Below, one piece after another: positions 32,901 to 42,572 of a DNA stretch of 64,000 nucleotides; positions within the stretch are counted from its first letter, which is position 1, and every line of letters begins with the position of its first letter. The stretch is from Daucus carota subsp. sativus. Its lineage: Eukaryota; Streptophyta; Magnoliopsida; Apiales; Apiaceae. The notes beneath the pieces were generated by a model that saw only the letters and a program-made list of their open reading frames with translations, made no database searches and was not told where the DNA came from. Made by a program: the position numbers and the translations under genes. The stretch is taken from positions 57,278,949 to 57,342,948 of the forward strand of contig NC_030383.2 of assembly GCF_001625215.2 (NCBI RefSeq), in the 5' to 3' direction.

Positions 32901-34019
32901 GAGTGATTGTGATCATTTAGAGCAGGCGGATAATGGGTGAAATTCATTAACTGATTATGATAGAAAGTAAAGAGGTGTTATGTCTTATAATTTATGTCTT
33001 CTTCAAAAGACACAAGAATTAATGTACATCTGTTTTTCTTTGTTGACAAGCTTAAATTTATTTATTTTTAGTTTTTTTTTAATTCAATTATCTGATAAAT
33101 TTCTTACACAATCACTACTCCCTCCCTCCCGGGAGGTTGTACACGTTTACTATTGCACACATTTCGAGACTTTTATAAACTATAGTTGCATAATGTTTTT
33201 TTAATGAAAATTTAAACATCAAATTTTTATTCAGAATTTTTATTAAAAAAATATTATAAAACTATACTTTAAAAGAATTTTAACAAGCATGCCAAAAAAT
33301 CATGTATATAATTCAATGGGACTGAGAGAATATCAAATAAACACGAGATCAAGAAAATCAAAGAACGAGATAAATATAACAATATAGATAAGCAAAACCA
33401 GTTTTAGCACGAAAACACGTAAATGTAGGTCTTCAACAAATGTTCTCTAATATATTGTGAGGGACTGACAGGCATGTGAAAAAATATCTTAAAATGAAAA
33501 GGGGAGTATATATTCTAATAATAAAAAATCCAAAGTAGCAAACAGTTGATGTTCCTTTGACACATGTGAATGGAGTCTATATGCAAGTACAAGAAGGAAA
33601 ACTGGCACCTACTATGCAATGTACCATGGAAAGAAATTATGAAGCATATGACCTACAAAGGTACAGTAAATTATAGAAATGTCTTTTTAGCTACCAAATG
33701 AAGGAGGATGATAATAGAATAGAGATATGCAGAATGTCACATGTGAACAATCCCACTTGCTTTACGAGTATGTTTATTCCCAAACAAAGATTTTGGTCCA
33801 CTCTAATGTAGTTTAGCCAGTTTAGGTTTCTTGGTTTCAATAATAAGTCTCGGGAGTCTTGTCAACTTCCTATATCAGCCAAAAGGGCGGGTTTCCTCAT
33901 GTCTCTTGTGATCATATTCTCAGTTTCTCCCTCTACTCTGTCAATAAAATCAAGTCCTTGCTGCCTTCTCTGCTTCTTAATCCAGTTTATTGATCAGTTA
34001 TTCAGGGAGATCTAAGAGC
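32901..34019. other. Spacer downstream of the LRR gene
   Basis: It includes the LRR 3' untranslated region. At about 33115-33332 degenerate Stowaway-like ends face each other (ACTCCCTCCCTCCCGGGAGG and, on the other strand, ATTCTCTCAGTCCC). No gene is supported. Confidence 0.5.
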
Positions 34020-34170
34020 CTGTGTTACTCATGATCGGCCAAAAGCGTCCAATATGGATATGTGTCGGAGTGTTGGATTAGACAATAATTTCAAAATTTT
34101 ACATGTTTTGGGTTAAAACATGTAAAATTTTACATGTTTCCGAGTGTCAAGTGTCCGACACGAGTATTCT
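34020..34170 (-). mobile_element. Copy 1 of an unclassified dispersed repeat
   Basis: Read on the minus strand it matches 61805-61960: a CGTGTCGGACA end, a central AAACATGTAAAATTTT segment and a second end with TTGGACRCTTTTRGCCGA. The ends are weakly inverted (GTGTCGGAC against GTGTCCAAC), suggesting a small DNA transposon. This copy also contains a short palindromic repeat of AAAACATGTAAAATTTTACA. Confidence 0.6.
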
Positions 34171-34979
34171 AGACAAAATGAAAAATCCAGATAACATAGC
34201 TGCATATGCACCGATGCACAAAAATAATTTATTTGTTAAGCGGATCGACATATTGCCGGAGCACTTTTTTCGATTCATTAAGAGCGAAGTCCCAAAGATA
34301 AGCTCATGAGAGCATCTGGTGGGCTCTTCAAACAAGCTATATTTCAAAATGGAGGAGTATTACTTTACTCCCTTTCAGTCACTCAAAGATTTATTCTGTA
34401 GCGATGGCTAATAATTGCAATCAAACATTGTTATCAAAATCCAACTAGCTGGATCAAGTTATCTTGTTTATTTGGCCTACCAAACTCAGACCTTTTTCTA
34501 GAAGACAAAGAAAATTAATTCAGTTCATGTGAGGGCGTTTTCAATTCAATATTCTTTCTGGATACTTTTTTTGTTATCAAGCTCTCTTTATTTCAGTGTT
34601 CAACTTTCACAACAGTATTCATCTCAACATAACCTCTGTGTCTTTTTGTCTCATGCCTGGATATACAAGATTACACAGATATGCAACATACAGAGAATTA
34701 AGTACCTGGATTTACCTTAAAGTGGCTCATTATAGTTGTATTTATATTATCTATTATTTCGATACAAATAATATCTAATGTATTCGGCTATGAAGCACGA
34801 CAAATATCCAATATTTAAGATTCTGCTTACAGCTTATTCAATAGATATACATTCAATGACAGTACCTGTCAGACATGGTTTATGACAAGTTACTGTGAAT
34901 TATGAATCATTTAAGCACAAGATAATAGCCCATCATTGCACTAGTTTGATCGAGAATTAGCCCAACATGGACTTACTGA

Positions 34980-37900
34980 TCAGGCAATGTAGTACATTGG
35001 GTTAGGGAGCTTGAAGGACCGTGTAGCCACTGCATAACCAGAGAGGTCGCTCCATTGATCTCCAGAGCAGCCATGGATAACATAACCTTCATCTACCAGT
35101 TCCATTCTCTTTTCAGACTTGTAAACGCTGGCTGCTTTGCCTTTATCCGAGGTTCCCCTGTTTTATTAACAACAAAGAAATAACTGTATTTTAAGCCACA
35201 CCTCAAAAAAATATAGAAACCGTAATCTAAGACATCATGAAAAAATATATGTTACATTTACATTCAAGCCATCATGAGACTCCTATATATTTATTTCTTC
35301 CTCATATCTCATGCATTGAGTGCTCATATTAAGAATTATCTAACAGATGATCATCATTCTCGTTAAGCCAACTATCAATCCAGTTTGCACATATATTTAA
35401 ACAAAAGGGGTAGCTTCCAATCCAACTCCAGCTAGATATCAAATCAAATATCTAGAGAAAAGGGTTTTTCTGTTAAACGCTGTGCATGATGTGTCTGATC
35501 AGCTTACCCAGTTCGGTAGATGTTTGGGACATTCAAGTGTTTCTGGTTTAACTCTGGTGATCAGATTAAAAGGAGGTCTTGAGAGTACGATACCTGAATC
35601 AAGTTTAGTATATACAAACATAACTCAAGGAAGGTTTTGAATTTTGTATAACTCAATAGTCCAATTACCTTAAGAAAAGTTTTTTCCAGTTGCTGAATCC
35701 CGCTTGTAGTAAATTTTTCTCAGTAACATTTCGTTGATATTCATCCCGTCCGGTTAATAAAAATACAGTAATTCCCATCTCTTCAAGCTCATTGTACAAT
35801 CTCAAACTTGCTGGCAGGCTGGGGGCCTCACTCATCTCCACCCAGTTATTGAAGGACTCTTCATCATAAATTTGTGAGCTGCGTCCAAGACAGAAAGCTT
35901 TTATTAACCCAATGTACAAGCTTAAAGCATCTGCCTTAGTGATTTAAGAGCAATATGTTATCACAGTCTATTAAATTTGCCTACTGATCATTTGCATCAG
36001 CAGAAGGTGGATGTAGTTCATGTGTACATAAGTACATTGTTGACAGTACAATTCATAGCTAACATTCCTTTCATTACTAAAATGTTGTCAGAACATCAAA
36101 GGGAATTGATGGCTAAAGCCGTTATAGAATACATCGATAAAAGAACAGAAAAAACACTGAGAATTTAAAATTAAGACTTCATATCAAAAGCAGTAACACA
36201 AAGGATGTGAAATACAATTATCCGACACCTACGAGAATTTTATTCTAACTATAGGTGTTAGTTCCATGCCTACTTCTATTCTTGTCCTATTTGGTGGAAC
36301 ATACCCAATTTCACGTAGATGTATACTGCTTGTAGTTACCATGACCGTAATTATCATAAATTATCTAAATCTCAAAACAATAAATTTTGTTGTTTCAAAC
36401 CTTTATAAGGCGCATATATATTCAGTGAAAAATCACAGAGGAATTTCAAACTATTAGAAAATATGACAAAATATAAAATTAACCAAGTGCAAGGAAATAA
36501 TTTACTTTAACTAATAAGACCCCTCAATCAGTTGGAAAGCATCTGCAAGAAAGTTGCTAGTAGGTCCTCTGTGCATGGTTATTAAGTTTGCTTGAGAAGC
36601 GGAGCACTCTTGTCAATTACTTGGTACAACATAAAGTTGAGAAAGCTGGATATGGAGAACAAAACTTAGTGACGTTTATGAATTAACAATGATGATATTA
36701 GTAATCAAAATTCAAAGGTGCTCAGTAAAACAATATATATGTAGACCTTGATTTTTACAACTTAAAACTCGACTACAAATTGAGTAAATACAGTAACCAT
36801 CCTATAGATGTACAGCATAACCTAACCATAAGATAACTGTCAATTTATGCTAGGTAATAAAACATAGATTATGTTTGTGCTCAGAATTTGAGGAAAACAA
36901 TATCATGATTACAAGCCTAATACATAATATTCCACAGAAAGCACAAGTCCGACTCAGTTATTGTCCCGGCAACGACAAGTGTGTAGGTGGAACTCACATT
37001 CGCACACATTGACTGCCAAAGCAGTTTTTGGTGATCAAACAAAAGATTTATTGAATACATGACTATTTAATCCTCCACAACTGTAATATGAAATATAACT
37101 TGTATGCATGAGCAACTTAAGAGTACAAAAATCTCAATCGAAAGTCTGAATTATTTACTAGAGGAATCATACAAGCACCTGAGACTCTAAATCATTTCTA
37201 TCTATTTTTGTATGATAGAAAGAGTAGCACCCACTCACAAGATCTCATATTGATCTGATTGCCTTAAATCTCAGGTTTATTTTTGTTCTTACTTGCTAAT
37301 CGCCTGACATTAGTAACAGATTAAATGACTGATAGTGGATTCATGAAAGCAGTTGTTTAATAAACTCTTATACTCCCTCCGTTCCATAAGGTTCTTTACG
37401 TTACTTTTTGGCACGCATTTTGAGGCTCCTATAAAGTATAGTTTCATTAAAAAAATTTTAAAAAAAATTCTTCCCTGAATAAAAGTTTTTGATGTTTAAA
37501 CTTTTATTCAAAAAATTAAAAATTTAAAAAACGTTATGGAACTATACTTTATAGGAGTCTCAGAATGCGTGCAAACAGTGAACGTAAACAACCTGGTGAG
37601 GCGGAGGGAGTACTCCTCCTTTGTTCTTAAGCCCAGTACAGATGTAGTTTACATGGATCAATTAGGAAAGGACACAACAGAAAACATATTACTTTATCTT
37701 AAAGAAATATTTCACTGAGATGTAACCGAAGTACAACTAATTTTTGGATTATTGTCGGGCATGAGATTCCAGTTTATGATGCCAGCAACAACAATAACAT
37801 TATGTTTAAAAGAAAAAAAATGAAATTCAAGATTGTGTGGTGAAAAATTGTATACATGCATCACTTTGTCAACAACACAAGGGAGAAAAAGAAGAAAAAA

Positions 37901-39667
37901 GACAACAAACATCTACGCAGTCATTTCTAGACTACCACTATTTCATTCAATATAAGTTCAATGCGAGAACACAAGATTAAAATTGTTACCATATAGCATG
38001 TTTCCACATCACTTTGTCTATTAAAGGACTTTATATTAGGACAAAGTTCAATGTTGTAAGAACTTTTAACATTCTTTCTGCGTGCTGATGTTAAGTTTTG
38101 TATATACAACATTTTTGAATGTTCTTTTACATGTGCAAAGTTGAATATATCATTACAAGAATAAGAACAACTAACGGCTTCCGATCTTGGCTAGTAAATG
38201 GAGCAAGTAGACACTTAATAATCAATATACAGGAAACACTAGCAGGGTTTCAATCGAGCAGTACCAAATGCTATTGCCTATCAGGCTCGAGTTTGTGCTC
38301 GACTACAAAATCTGGAATCAGGCTCGAGTTCGTGTTTTAATCGAGCCATTAATCCGGAAGCTTAAATGACTAAAGTTCGAAAAACTTATGTTCGGGTTAG
38401 AAGCACCAATTGATTGTACTAAATACATATAAGTCTCAATAATATGTCATATATAATCATATATAATTAAAATAAAAGCACGACTAGACTTGCGAGCCTC
38501 ACAAACCAAGTAACTTGGCCCTCAAGCGTGAAAACATACTCGAAAAGAACGAGCTCGACTCAATTCTTTTCGAATCAAATTAGAAAATCTTATGGATTGA
38601 GCTTGGAACAGGGGTAACAAACGAATTTGACCCCGTAAAGTACGAATTCGGATTGCAATTTTGAGTTTTGTTGACCTAAACTTACCCAAAAAAATATCGG
38701 GTCATTTTCAGGTTACCTTAAATTGACACAAATTTTTATATTATAATGTAATATTATAAAAAACACCTATATTTATATTATTTATATATTATCTATTATT
38801 TAAATTATTAAATATATTGCGGGAGGTCGGGAGTTCGACTCCCCGCGTGTACGTGTGTAATCAATTAGCAAAAAGAAAAAAATATTAAATATTTAATTTT
38901 AATTTACTATAAATTATTCAAAATATTATTATTTAGTTATTTATTATTTAAAAATATATATTAATAAATTATTATTGTGTCAGATAGGGCCGGGTCAAGC
39001 TTAGGTCGAGTATTTGGCCCATTGAAAGTTGGTTTCGGATAAATTTCTCACCAGAAACCTGAAATTGCCGGGCCCCACCTTGAGCATAACTCATATAAAC
39101 CCTTAAACACAAGTATTAGCTCACAATGACAAAACAAATTAGCTCACTAATCCTCATTTCAGTTCACATTACTGATTTCTTACAACAATCAACAATGTAT
39201 GTAAAGTAAAGACTAAAGACTAAATTAGCAAATAAAAACTTAAAAAAAATGTAAAGAGTGGTGAAAGACTCAACTCACTCAAATCCCTTATCAGCATAAT
39301 AAGGCAGATTAGACAAAAGGGTCTCATCAATATCAAAAACCCAAGCATCCTTCCCAGTGAGCTCCACAGTCTTAGCATACTCCAATGAATCATCAGCAAC
39401 CACCTCAGAATCAGATATATATCTGTCCCCAGTCATGTAATCCTTGACATAGTCAATACATTTCTCAGGAGTGAAGCTCCAGCTTCCAGCATCATTGGTT
39501 TCAACACTGAATCTCCAGCTATCACAGTAGAGAGTGTTGGCTAAGGTGAAAAGCAAGTGGGGTTTTGTGAATTGTTGGATTATTGAGTGGGAGAGAATGG
39601 GAGAGATTAGAGTGAAGAGGAAGAGAAGTGTGAGGTGGGTTTGGTCAGAGGCCATGGTTAGTATCAA
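34980..39667 (-). CDS. HAD subfamily IIIB acid phosphatase (VSP-like), 3 exons, proximal first exon
   Basis: Secreted or vacuolar acid phosphatase of the vegetative storage protein family. Exons, 5' to 3': 39667-39279, 35878-35669, 35157-34980 (258 aa, usual length). It has a signal peptide at about 1-27, the catalytic motif DIDETLLSN (Asp112 and Asp114, so unlike Arabidopsis VSP2 the nucleophile is kept), motif II FLLTGRDEYQR in exon 2, and VYKSEKR and GDQWSDLSGYA in exon 3, ending PMYYIA. ATGs at 39667 and 39655 are both possible starts. Intron 1 is 3.4 kb and contains a Stowaway MITE. A second, nearly identical first exon lies upstream at 40306-40694; the two share exons 2-3. The position matches At4g29260/29270. 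Confidence 0.85.
37373..37610. mobile_element. Stowaway MITE in HAD phosphatase intron 1
   Basis: Starts CTCCCTCCGTTCCATAAGGT and ends with the reverse complement of CTCCCTCCGCCTCACCAGGT, flanked by TA at 37371-37372 and 37611-37612. Length 238 bp; the arms form a long imperfect hairpin around 37430-37560. Confidence 0.85.
38250..38600. repeat. Subterminal-repeat-rich transposon-like segment
   Basis: Several copies of CTCGAG-type motifs (AGGCTCGAGTTTGTGCTCGA, AGGCTCGAGTTCGTG, CGAGCTCGACTC) occur within 350 bp in both orientations, as in ends of hAT-like elements. No boundaries or target duplication were found. Confidence 0.35.
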
Positions 39668-40749
39668 GAAGACAAGAACCTACGACCCCTTTTAGTGTGT
39701 TTGAGTTTGGGTATGAATCTGAATCTATTTGTTTCTTGTTATGAGAACTTAAACTTTCATGTTTGGATCTAAGACATTTTTCTAGTGTAATCTATAAATA
39801 AATTGAGTTGAAAAAACTAGCTTCAAATGGGTTATGTGGTTACTTGAATTGTAGCAACTTGAATCCTATATGGATTTGATAATGGGAGGTTAGTGAATTT
39901 ATATTACTCCCTTCATCCCATTTTAAGTGTCCTATTTGACTTTTGAATGGAAATTGACCAAAATTTTAAAATACATATATTAATAAATTATTATTATTAT
40001 TATTTTCATTTCAGGTTGTTTCGGGTCGAGCCTAGGTCCAGCATTATGGCTCATTAAAATTTCAGGTTTGTTTCGGATAAATTTCTCACCCGAAACAGCC
40101 CTAGCTCGGAATACCTTGAGCATAACTCATATAAACCCCTAAAGAGCCTAAACAGAAGTATCAGCTTACAAGGACAAAACAAATTACCTCACTAATCCTC
40201 ATTTCAATTCACGTCACTAATTTTCTACAACAATGTATATAAATTAAAGACTAAATTAGCAAAAATAAAATAAAAATGTAAAGAGTATTGAAAGACTAAG
40301 CTCACCCAAATCCATTATCAGCATAATAAGGCAGATTCGACAAAAGGGTCTCATCAACATCAAAAACCCAAGCATCCTTCCCAGTGAGCTCCACAGTCTT
40401 AGCATACTCCAATGAATCATCAGCAACCACCTCAGAATCAGATGTATATCTGTCCCCAGTCATGTAATCCTTGACATAGTCAATACATTTCTCGGGAATG
40501 GTGCTCCAGCTTCCAGCATCATTGGTTTCAACACTGAATCTCCAGCTATCACAGTAGAGAGTGTTGGCTGAGGTGAAATGCAAGAGGGGTTTTGTGAATT
40601 GTTGGATTATTGAGTGGGAGAGAATGGGAGAGATGAGAGTGAAGAGGAGGAGAAGTGTGAGGTGGGTTTGGTCGGAGGCCATGGTTAGTATCAAGAACCT
40701 GCGACCCTTGAAGTGTTTGAGGTTTGGGTATGAATCTGAATCTATTTAT
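38943..40749. repeat. Direct duplication of HAD phosphatase exon 1 and flanks, period about 1,027 bp
   Basis: Units of about 790 bp, roughly 38943-39730 and 39965-40749, share intron sequence, exon 1 and the first 60 bases upstream. Exon 1 is nearly identical in the two (a few changes such as DIDET/DVDET and DKGFE/DNGFG). The upstream border of the match falls inside the TATA box of the distal copy: identity ends after GAATCTATTT. A truncated Stowaway-like left end (about 39905-39960) abuts the second unit. Confidence 0.9.
40306..40694 (-). CDS. Duplicated distal first exon of the HAD acid phosphatase
   Basis: An intact copy of exon 1 encodes signal peptide, CDSWRFSVETNDAGSW and DVDETLLSN, and ends GG|GTGAGC. 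Spliced to the exon at 35878 it would give GFGSQIYDE, the family consensus, whereas the proximal copy gives GFDSQIYDE. It keeps a TATA box (TATAAATAG, 40742-40750) about 50 bp upstream. It has no exons 2-3 of its own before the proximal copy, so it is either an alternative first exon or a truncated duplicate. Confidence 0.8.
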
Positions 40750-40750
40750 A
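40742..40750 (-). promoter_or_regulatory. TATA box of the distal HAD phosphatase first exon
   Basis: TATAAATAG on the minus strand, about 50 bp from ATG 40694. The matching place before the proximal exon reads ACAAATAG, so only the distal copy has it. Confidence 0.6.
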
Positions 40751-41773
40751 CCCAGTAAACACAATATCACATGTGCGAAATTTGTCAGATGTGACCCTGC
40801 CTCGTGAAATAATTAATAATTGAATTCGATTTGATTTTTTGTCAAATTTGATTTGAATTTGAATAATTTTTGAGAAAAAGTAGAAATAATTTTTTTAGTA
40901 ATTGGTGTATTATAAATATTTAAATTTATTTAATTAAAATCTTTCATATGTCTACTACGTTATTTGAAAAAGAAATTTAAGATTGGGGCTATTTTTTATT
41001 CATTCATTATAATTTTTGGTATTTTTTTTATAAATGAGTTAATTCAATAATAAAAAGCCACGGTATCTACATAAACAGTCGCGTCGAACAAAAAAAAAAA
41101 CAGAAACAATCACTGATTAATCCATTCTTCTTGGAAATAAAATCACTTGATTTGTTAAAGATGATATGTACACATACTTCGCCACTTTCGCTTCCGCCAT
41201 AAATAGTTTGAGCTATCGACTGAGAATGCAATCCCCTGACAATTTTTATTACTAAATCAAGCACCATACTCACACAAACGGTGAGAAAATAATAAAAGTC
41301 ATACAAATAGTGAGACAACAAAAAAATCAATACCATACGTGACAACCTAACAACCAAATGCGTAAATGAAATATTAGATAAACAAGGAAATCCTAAGATC
41401 TGGAGAACAAACCCACAAAAATAAGATAACTCGAACCACTTTGAAGGATAGAAGCACTGTGAAAAATGAGAAGTTCGTAACTCCGTGAAATTGAGATCTA
41501 AGATAAGAAGGTTAAAACGGAAAAGGTTTTGAATCCTTAGATCCGAAAAACCAAACTAATGTTAAATAAGTTCTATTGAAAGAAGGAACAAAACCCAAAA
41601 AAAAAAAAAAAAAAATTTAGGAGCTTTCCATCGGTAGAGATCCGATGGAAGCCCCTTCCATTGCTAAACAAAAGTAAAAGATCGAGGGGGAGGAAACTAG
41701 GGCTTGCGCCTTTGCCGTATCGGATAAAATTATAATTTTTGGTACTTGTTCAAATAAATATGAGATTATCGGA
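40751..41773. other. Spacer upstream of the HAD phosphatase
   Basis: It has an A-homopolymer at about 41590-41615, then a perfect small hairpin CTTTCCATCGG/CCGATGGAAG at about 41624-41651. The segment 41206-41260 resembles 10307-10352, suggesting a dispersed repeat. No gene is supported. Confidence 0.5.
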
Positions 41774-42236
41774 TTGAGGGATCGTTTGGTTCGTGGAGCG
41801 GTATCGGGTTCGAATTAAGAATCGAGTTGGGGTGGTATGGGGTTAAGGTATCATTTATGATATCATGTGTTTTTTTGAGTGTTGGAATGAATCTATTTAA
41901 TTTAAATATTATCATGTTATTGATTAAATAAAATAATTTTATTAAATAAAAAATTATAAATATTTTTATTATTAACAATAACATTTATTTGTATATGTAA
42001 ATATTTTTTTTGTCATTATTAATATTTTTTCAAAAAATAAGAAAAAAACATTAATAATGATACCCATACCAGCATTTCATACCCACCTCTTCACTTGGGT
42101 TTCAAAAAGTCATATTCTGAGGGTTTGAGATATGGGTATGAAGATAAAAAAAATCCAACCAAACATTAGGTATGAGTTTGGCTGATTTGATACCCATACC
42201 TGATTCATCGTACTACCCAACCAAATGACCCCTCAA
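41774..42236. mobile_element. MITE with GTTTGGTT-type termini (Tourist/PIF-like or hAT)
   Basis: The left end TTGAGGGATCGTTTGGTT and the reverse complement of the right end TTGAGGGGTCATTTGGTT match at 16 of 18 positions. Length about 463 bp, AT-rich centre, no transposase. Target duplication not resolved. Confidence 0.65.
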
Positions 42237-42572
42237 ATAAATAATATAGTTCTGATTCAATTTCCTGCTGGAAATATAGCCTCTTTCTTAGCTGAGAGTG
42301 GTTGTGCAGAGAGTACAGCCTTCTGCCAAAGAAATTTAACCTCTTGTCTAAATTTGAAAAAAACGTGCTTAATAATGATCGAGTAAAATAGGTGAATTCA
42401 ATTGTCATCTCCTTTTCCAACCAAAAATTATGTGGCTCTGGCCTAGCAAAAAATTTTATGTGGCACAGTTTTTTTTGCTTTCTATACAGCATGTGGCTCA
42501 GGCTAGTGAGGTGTAATCAGCATCTCTACGAGTCATACAAAACAAGAAGAAAACTTCAGCTGTACTGGGAAG

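Follow-up and report, generated by a model that had tools for sequence, protein, structure and literature searches.

Does a gene with two open first exons in front of a single set of downstream exons make two proteins, or is one of the two exons a leftover? The question was raised by an acid-phosphatase gene on the minus strand of carrot (Daucus carota subsp. sativus) contig NC_030383.2. The window, that is, the whole stretch of DNA that we analyzed, comprises 64,000 nucleotides (nt; contig positions 57,278,949 to 57,342,948), and all positions below are counted within it unless stated otherwise. An earlier note on this stretch had proposed that the gene has two tandem first exons, here called 1A and 1B, and could make two proteins. 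We found that the two exons are copies of one another, produced by a duplication that did not include the promoter. Judging from the sequence, 1A is probably the first exon of the gene and 1B a largely unused relic in intron 1, without consequence.

The coding parts of the gene are as follows.

Exon 1A, 40306 to 40682, minus strand: coding part from the ATG to the donor, with the DxDET motif and the split codon of G126; open over 377 nt, phase 2.
Exon 1B, 39279 to 39655, minus strand: coding part, likely a relic first exon; open over 377 nt, phase 2; ratio of nonsynonymous to synonymous divergence (omega) of 0.75-0.92 against 1A; tree branch of 0.042, as against 0.000 for 1A.
Exon 2, 35669 to 35878, minus strand: common to both forms; placed by its frame, GT/AG borders and a six-frame match.
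Exon 3, 34980 to 35157, minus strand: common to both forms, with the stop codon; placed by its frame, borders and a six-frame match.

Joined to exons 2 and 3, exon 1A gave a protein of 254 amino acids, free of stops before its end, and so did exon 1B. The donor GT directly follows 40306 in 1A and 39279 in 1B, and the acceptor AG directly precedes 35878. The coordinates and the two frames thus bear out the two open first exons and one downstream set described in the earlier note, which was also right that both donors are compatible with exon 2, both first exons being 377 nt long and in phase 2.

Both forms matched PF03767 (Acid_phosphat_B; cut-off, 27 bits) over the whole domain, with 270.9 bits (1.1e-80) for the 1A form and 264 bits (1.4e-78) for the 1B form. 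The nearest solved structure was Arabidopsis VSP1 (PDB 4fyp, E 8.6e-44), the other seven of the eight structure matches being far weaker. VSP1, a plant acid phosphatase, is described as a member of the DDDD superfamily with four conserved aspartates (PMC3498132). D108, D110, D229 and D233 of the carrot protein align with VSP1 Asp124, 126, 245 and 249. D108 and D110 are encoded in exon 1, so that either first exon supplies the first aspartate pair. Residues 1 to about 22 form a putative signal peptide, judged from a hydrophobic run. We regard the gene as one predicted VSP-like plant HAD IIIB acid phosphatase (PF03767), its activity being assigned by family. It shares with VSP1 the protein family and the four aspartates and differs by the extra first exon, apart from which there is nothing unusual about it.

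The first exons lie within a pair of duplicated units.

Unit A, 39965 to 40747, minus strand: leader, exon 1A and about 340 bp of intron 1; delimited by BLASTN alignment with unit B.
Unit B, 38947 to 39730, minus strand: leader without TATA box, exon 1B and about 330 bp of intron; delimited by BLASTN alignment with unit A.

A BLASTN local alignment of unit A (783 bp) with unit B showed identity at 690 of 814 columns (85%), with 61 gap columns, and a repeat search recovered five direct-repeat pairs across the units at a spacing of 1027-1045 nt. An identity of 85% over 780 bp is far beyond chance, and the duplication is confirmed; chance similarity was rejected on this identity and on the direct-repeat pairs. 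A tandem-repeat finder reported three short arrays in the search, none within units A and B. We also searched the genome (441,086,747 bases, 11 contigs) in six frames at E <= 0.01. All 21 candidates were scored, and the 19 matches comprised seven to exon 1, six to exon 2 and six to exon 3, and hence one surplus first exon. They belong to six genes, two on the contig labeled C3, two on C6 and one each on C8 and C4, and only the window gene has two first exons among them. An assembly artefact, or collapsed alleles, would also yield two similar units, an explanation that we consider extremely improbable: divergence between the copies is 4.0% in the exon and 14.6-20.6% in the intron, the units have different flanks, and a repeat fragment lies between them. 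No point in support of an artefact was found, the material being assembled sequence, not raw reads.

The duplication takes in 65 bp of leader, exon 1 and some 340 bp of intron 1. Its upstream limit falls within the following element.

TATA box before exon 1A, 40743 to 40750, minus strand: TATAAATA, read from the sequence and cut by the duplication boundary, homology with 1B beginning at 40747; putative promoter element.

Homology between the units starts inside this box (TAT/AAATAG, the slash marking the border). At the boundary, 1A reads GGTATAAATAGA and 1B reads GAAACAAATAGA (also given as ACAAATAG), AAATAGA being common to both, and BLASTN found no further homology between the units upstream of it. 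Thus, the leader, exon 1 and part of intron 1 were duplicated, and the promoter was not. The earlier note had described a unit of about 790 bp, with the promoter-proximal region, duplicated about 1 kb apart. The unit stands, and what remains of the promoter-proximal region is about 65 bp of leader. As for a duplicated promoter, this had to be rejected because homology ends inside the TATA box, leaving 1B without the TATA box of 1A. Inspected by eye, the upstream sequence of the C8 gene showed no visible counterpart of 1A's TATAAATAG and gives no help as to which copy is older.

Exons 1A and 1B differ at 15 of 377 sites (4.0%), without any gap; 11 differences are nonsynonymous, affecting 10 residues, and four are synonymous. 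Nonsynonymous (dN) and synonymous (dS) divergence were 0.038 and 0.051 by NG86 and 0.040 and 0.044 by YN00, that is, an omega of 0.75-0.92. When the two C6 genes and the other C3 gene were compared with one another (three comparisons), omega was 0.11-0.29; by NG86 only, it was 0.24-0.26 for 1A or 1B paired with the C8 and C3 genes, which are more distant; YN00 estimates were obtained for four of the seven pairs. With 15 changes between 1A and 1B, an omega of 0.2 was rejected (P 0.002-0.010), and 0.3 was borderline (P 0.018-0.063). Such a substitution pattern, imprecisely measured as it is, fits what would be expected from one constrained and one free copy.

Changes were then assigned to either copy by means of the paralogues. 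FastTree joined 1A and 1B with a support of 0.935 and placed the divergence on the branch of 1B. Unique changes, given as 1A:1B, were 3:7 of 369 sites with the C8 gene, 2:7 of 321 with C3, 0:7 of 255 with each of the C6 genes (C6a and C6b), and 3:4 of 252 with C4. These five outgroups are not independent of one another, and for four of them the sequence compared was without the N-terminal part, wholly for C6a, C6b and C4 and partly for C3. The greater part of the 15 exon differences seems to have arisen on the 1B side. Codon 61 encodes Thr in four of the five paralogues and Ser in one, with T in 1A and F in 1B; codon 62 encodes Ile in four and Val in one, with I in 1A and T in 1B; and codon 126 encodes Gly in all five, with G in 1A and D in 1B. 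The GFG/GFD difference pointed out in the earlier note is a loss, by 1B, of a glycine kept in the other six of the seven exon-1 copies. Its claim of two proteins holds insofar as the predicted proteins differ at 10 residues, G126D included; that both proteins are functional is, by inference, not borne out. The base behind G126D is also the -1 position of the donor, which is G in six of the seven exon-1 donors and A only in 1B, and the U1 pairing of the donor was -9.3 kcal/mol for 1A and -5.4 kcal/mol for 1B. Read from 1A to 1B, C>T or G>A changes account for eight of the 15 differences and the reverse transition for one; an excess of this kind would be expected if 1B had been methylated. For two of the eight, in codons 63 and 109, C8 has the base of 1B, which makes the direction doubtful.

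The missing TATA box, the omega close to neutrality, the concentration of changes on 1B, the loss of Gly126 and of the G at donor position -1, the lower Pfam score of the 1B form, the bias in transitions, and the absence of any AG ahead of the 1B coding start by which 1A could be joined to all of 1B in an open frame speak for 1B as a relic. We infer that transcription would begin shortly after the TATA box (40750-40743) and that the 1A donor (40306) would be spliced across the 4.4-kb intron to exon 2 (35878), skipping 1B, which, once a first exon, would have no acceptor of its own. Exon 1B would be a partial tandem duplicate within intron 1, and the duplication, or a later deletion, would have placed it beside the repeat fragment with loss of the original core promoter. 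In an earlier phase, gene conversion from 1A, or some use, would have kept 1B alike; in a later phase, its coding sequence would have been drifting with little sign of protein constraint. At present, 1B is probably not used at all or, if it is, then at a low and inconsequential level.

Several observations weigh against a relic. Exon 1B contains neither a stop nor an indel. The first 180 nt of the intron differ by 14.6% (25 of 171) and the remainder by 20.6% (29 of 141), as against 4.0% in the exon (P 2.5e-5 for exon versus first intron part), and gap events numbered none in the exon versus six in the leader and first 180 nt of intron (P 0.003). This low exon divergence without gap events indicated that 1B has not been drifting freely ever since the duplication. 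An omega of 0.5 was not rejected for the pair (P 0.14-0.29), and the asymmetry of changes is weak with C8 (3:7) and C4 (3:4). The 1B donor lies in the paralogue range of U1 pairing, with two paralogue donors at -5.4 and -5.3 kcal/mol, and is therefore weaker than that of 1A, not dead. Lastly, a TATAAA lies upstream of 1B, and a similar layout works in the PEP1 gene of Arabis alpina, despite differing upstream sequences. The absence of a stop is itself weak evidence, its chance being 0.51-0.60 under neutrality with 15 changes.

Selection on a protein would reduce dN, not dS. Synonymous sites were also low in divergence, however, at four of about 80 versus 25 of 171 in the intron (P about 0.03; the synonymous total was estimated at 78, and P is 0.033 with a total of 80 and 0.022 with one of 82). 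The low exon divergence and the low dS are both compatible with an exon 1B that underwent gene conversion from 1A and then drifted; the alternative is that constraint on 1B was lost only recently. Awkward for gene conversion is that divergence climbs close to the exon edge, with 7 differences in 60 in the first intron block.

The TATAAA upstream of 1B belongs to a repeat fragment between the units.

Repeat fragment, 39729 to 39907, minus strand: truncated repeat related to a long terminal repeat (LTR), containing a TATAAA (39903-39898) in the orientation of the gene; identified by genome matches, its last ~100 bp matching the 3' end of an LTR of ~1 kb with a 5-bp target duplication.

This repeat (39907-39729) has at least 40 other matches in the genome, 40 of 461 candidates having been scored. 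Besides the window's own, we considered 29 repeat loci (L002, L003, L005-L008 and L011-L033), 17 of which entered the alignment and 18 the TATA check, which left out 11 matching only about the last 100 bp. The only pair shown to consist of clean direct repeats was L033/L032 (G000:C3:5630181-5638926). Its repeats measure 985-1008 bp, lie 5,648 bp apart, begin with TGTTGG, end with TAACA and have AAGTA flanking both sides. Long direct repeats, TG...CA ends and a short target duplication are thus present, as would be expected of LTRs. The match of these LTRs to the window fragment is confined to its last ~84 bp, and the 3' end of the LTRs is common to many short copies elsewhere in the genome. 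L023 and L024 are alike over 2.5 kb, and L027 and L028 over 1.8 kb, and these show no LTR borders. The TATAAA-bearing part of the fragment matches a second set of 18 shorter copies, which may or may not be LTRs and whose element may be read in either direction; TATAAA or TATATA was found at this place in 14 of the 18. In other copies, the repeat continues about 75 bp beyond the point at which it is cut in the window, and the window repeat is therefore truncated where unit B begins. The fragment could serve as a promoter for 1B.

A possible but rather unlikely reading is that the gene has two promoters, 1A and 1B each having a start of their own and sharing exons 2 and 3, so that two phosphatases are made, as in PEP1. 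Transcription of exon 1B would depend on the TATAAA in the repeat (39903-39898) or begin without any TATA box. Such a gene would account for two open frames with compatible donors, for an exon less diverged than its intron and free of indels, for a TATAAA on the right strand that is mostly kept among the repeat copies, and for a 1B donor pairing like those of paralogues; what it leaves unaccounted for is an omega of 0.75-0.92 with changes mainly on 1B, and the loss from 1B of Gly126, the donor -1 G and the TATA box altogether. It retains the standing that we give it mainly because the PEP1 layout, a plant precedent, works with differing upstream sequences. A related reading, which we hold to be quite improbable, makes the retrotransposon-related fragment at the junction a new promoter of 1B. 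The two phosphatases would then differ in the DxDET exon and in the glycine kept by the family, and the near-neutral dN/dS would reflect functional divergence, not decay.

Another use of 1B would be as a decoy exon. Exon 1A would sometimes be spliced to an acceptor upstream of 1B, and the sequence around 1B, taken up as an internal exon, would truncate the protein and tune the level of enzyme. We tested 50 AGs between 40290 and 39301 for splicing of 1A to 1B. Twelve of them keep the frame open as far as the end of 1B, all 12 inside exon 1B, and a transcript joining 1A to the whole of 1B in one open frame was rejected. No AG upstream of the 1B coding start keeps the 1A frame open through 1B, so that a messenger RNA containing all of 1B internally would yield a truncated product, as a decoy should. 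Between exon 1A and the start of 1B, there are four pyrimidine-rich AGs (40251, 40165, 40139 and 39792), but these candidate acceptors are consensus matches only, and we consider a decoy highly unlikely.

How the arrangement arose is a separate matter, one that cuts across the relic, two-promoter, decoy and artefact readings. It is conceivable, though we lean against it, that two complete tandem genes existed and that a deletion took exons 2 and 3 from the first of them and the promoter from the second. The family does make whole-gene tandem pairs, as on C6, and the repeat is cut exactly at the start of unit B, as at a deletion or repair junction; but 783 bp duplicated directly in tandem, with repeat DNA captured at the junction, would explain the same facts, and tblastn found no further remnant of a second gene in the window. 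The C6 pair (L040 and L041, G000:C6:37686429-37692979) consists of two paralogues, each complete with three exons, at a distance of about 5 kb.

Intron 1 holds two other features. At 37371-37612, there is an inverted repeat with arms of 77 nt, 82% complementary and 88 nt apart, with the ends TACTCCCTCCG...CGGAGGGAGTA, which we take to be like a Stowaway-type miniature transposon. At 38821-38844 on the minus strand, the stretch GGGGAGTCGAACTCCCGACCTCCC resembles the end of a transfer RNA (tRNA) gene and perhaps belongs to a tRNA-derived short interspersed element (SINE); neither ARAGORN nor Rfam gave a match there. ARAGORN found no tRNA in the window, and no Rfam family reached its gathering score in 34000-42500.

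A search of the open-access literature turned up no paper on this carrot locus, which is a neat instance of a gene that contains a partial duplicate of itself. One can ask here whether a first exon deprived of its promoter is rescued by a transposon-derived promoter or simply decays. If 1B is unused, it is a warning that two intact first exons need not mean two isoforms.

Two known systems may be compared with it. In the vertebrate UGT1 cluster, nine first exons, each with its own promoter, have been studied in people (PMC3325998). The carrot gene resembles it in having tandem first exons before one common exon set and differs in that there are two first exons, the second of which is without the TATA box of the first; a candidate TATAAA lies further upstream, in the repeat.

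PEP1, the FLC orthologue of Arabis alpina, is closer. According to two sources (PMC3527215; PMC7927791), its exon 1 with parts of the promoter and intron 1 was duplicated (about 2 kb), giving exons 1a and 1b, 6.3 kb apart. Two transcripts with separate starts and one shared exon 2 have been demonstrated there, with little homology upstream, and in the accession Pajares, the predicted proteins of both forms are identical. The carrot gene is PEP1-like in structure: both show a partial tandem duplication of exon 1 with part of intron 1, tandem first exons before one downstream set, and little upstream homology. It departs from PEP1 in that the two coding copies have not been kept alike, with predicted proteins differing at 10 residues and an omega of 0.75-0.92, in the offset of about 1.03 kb, and in that the carrot 1B is known from sequence alone. 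Should both starts be used, the carrot gene would join PEP1 as another case from plants, one in which the proteins differ.

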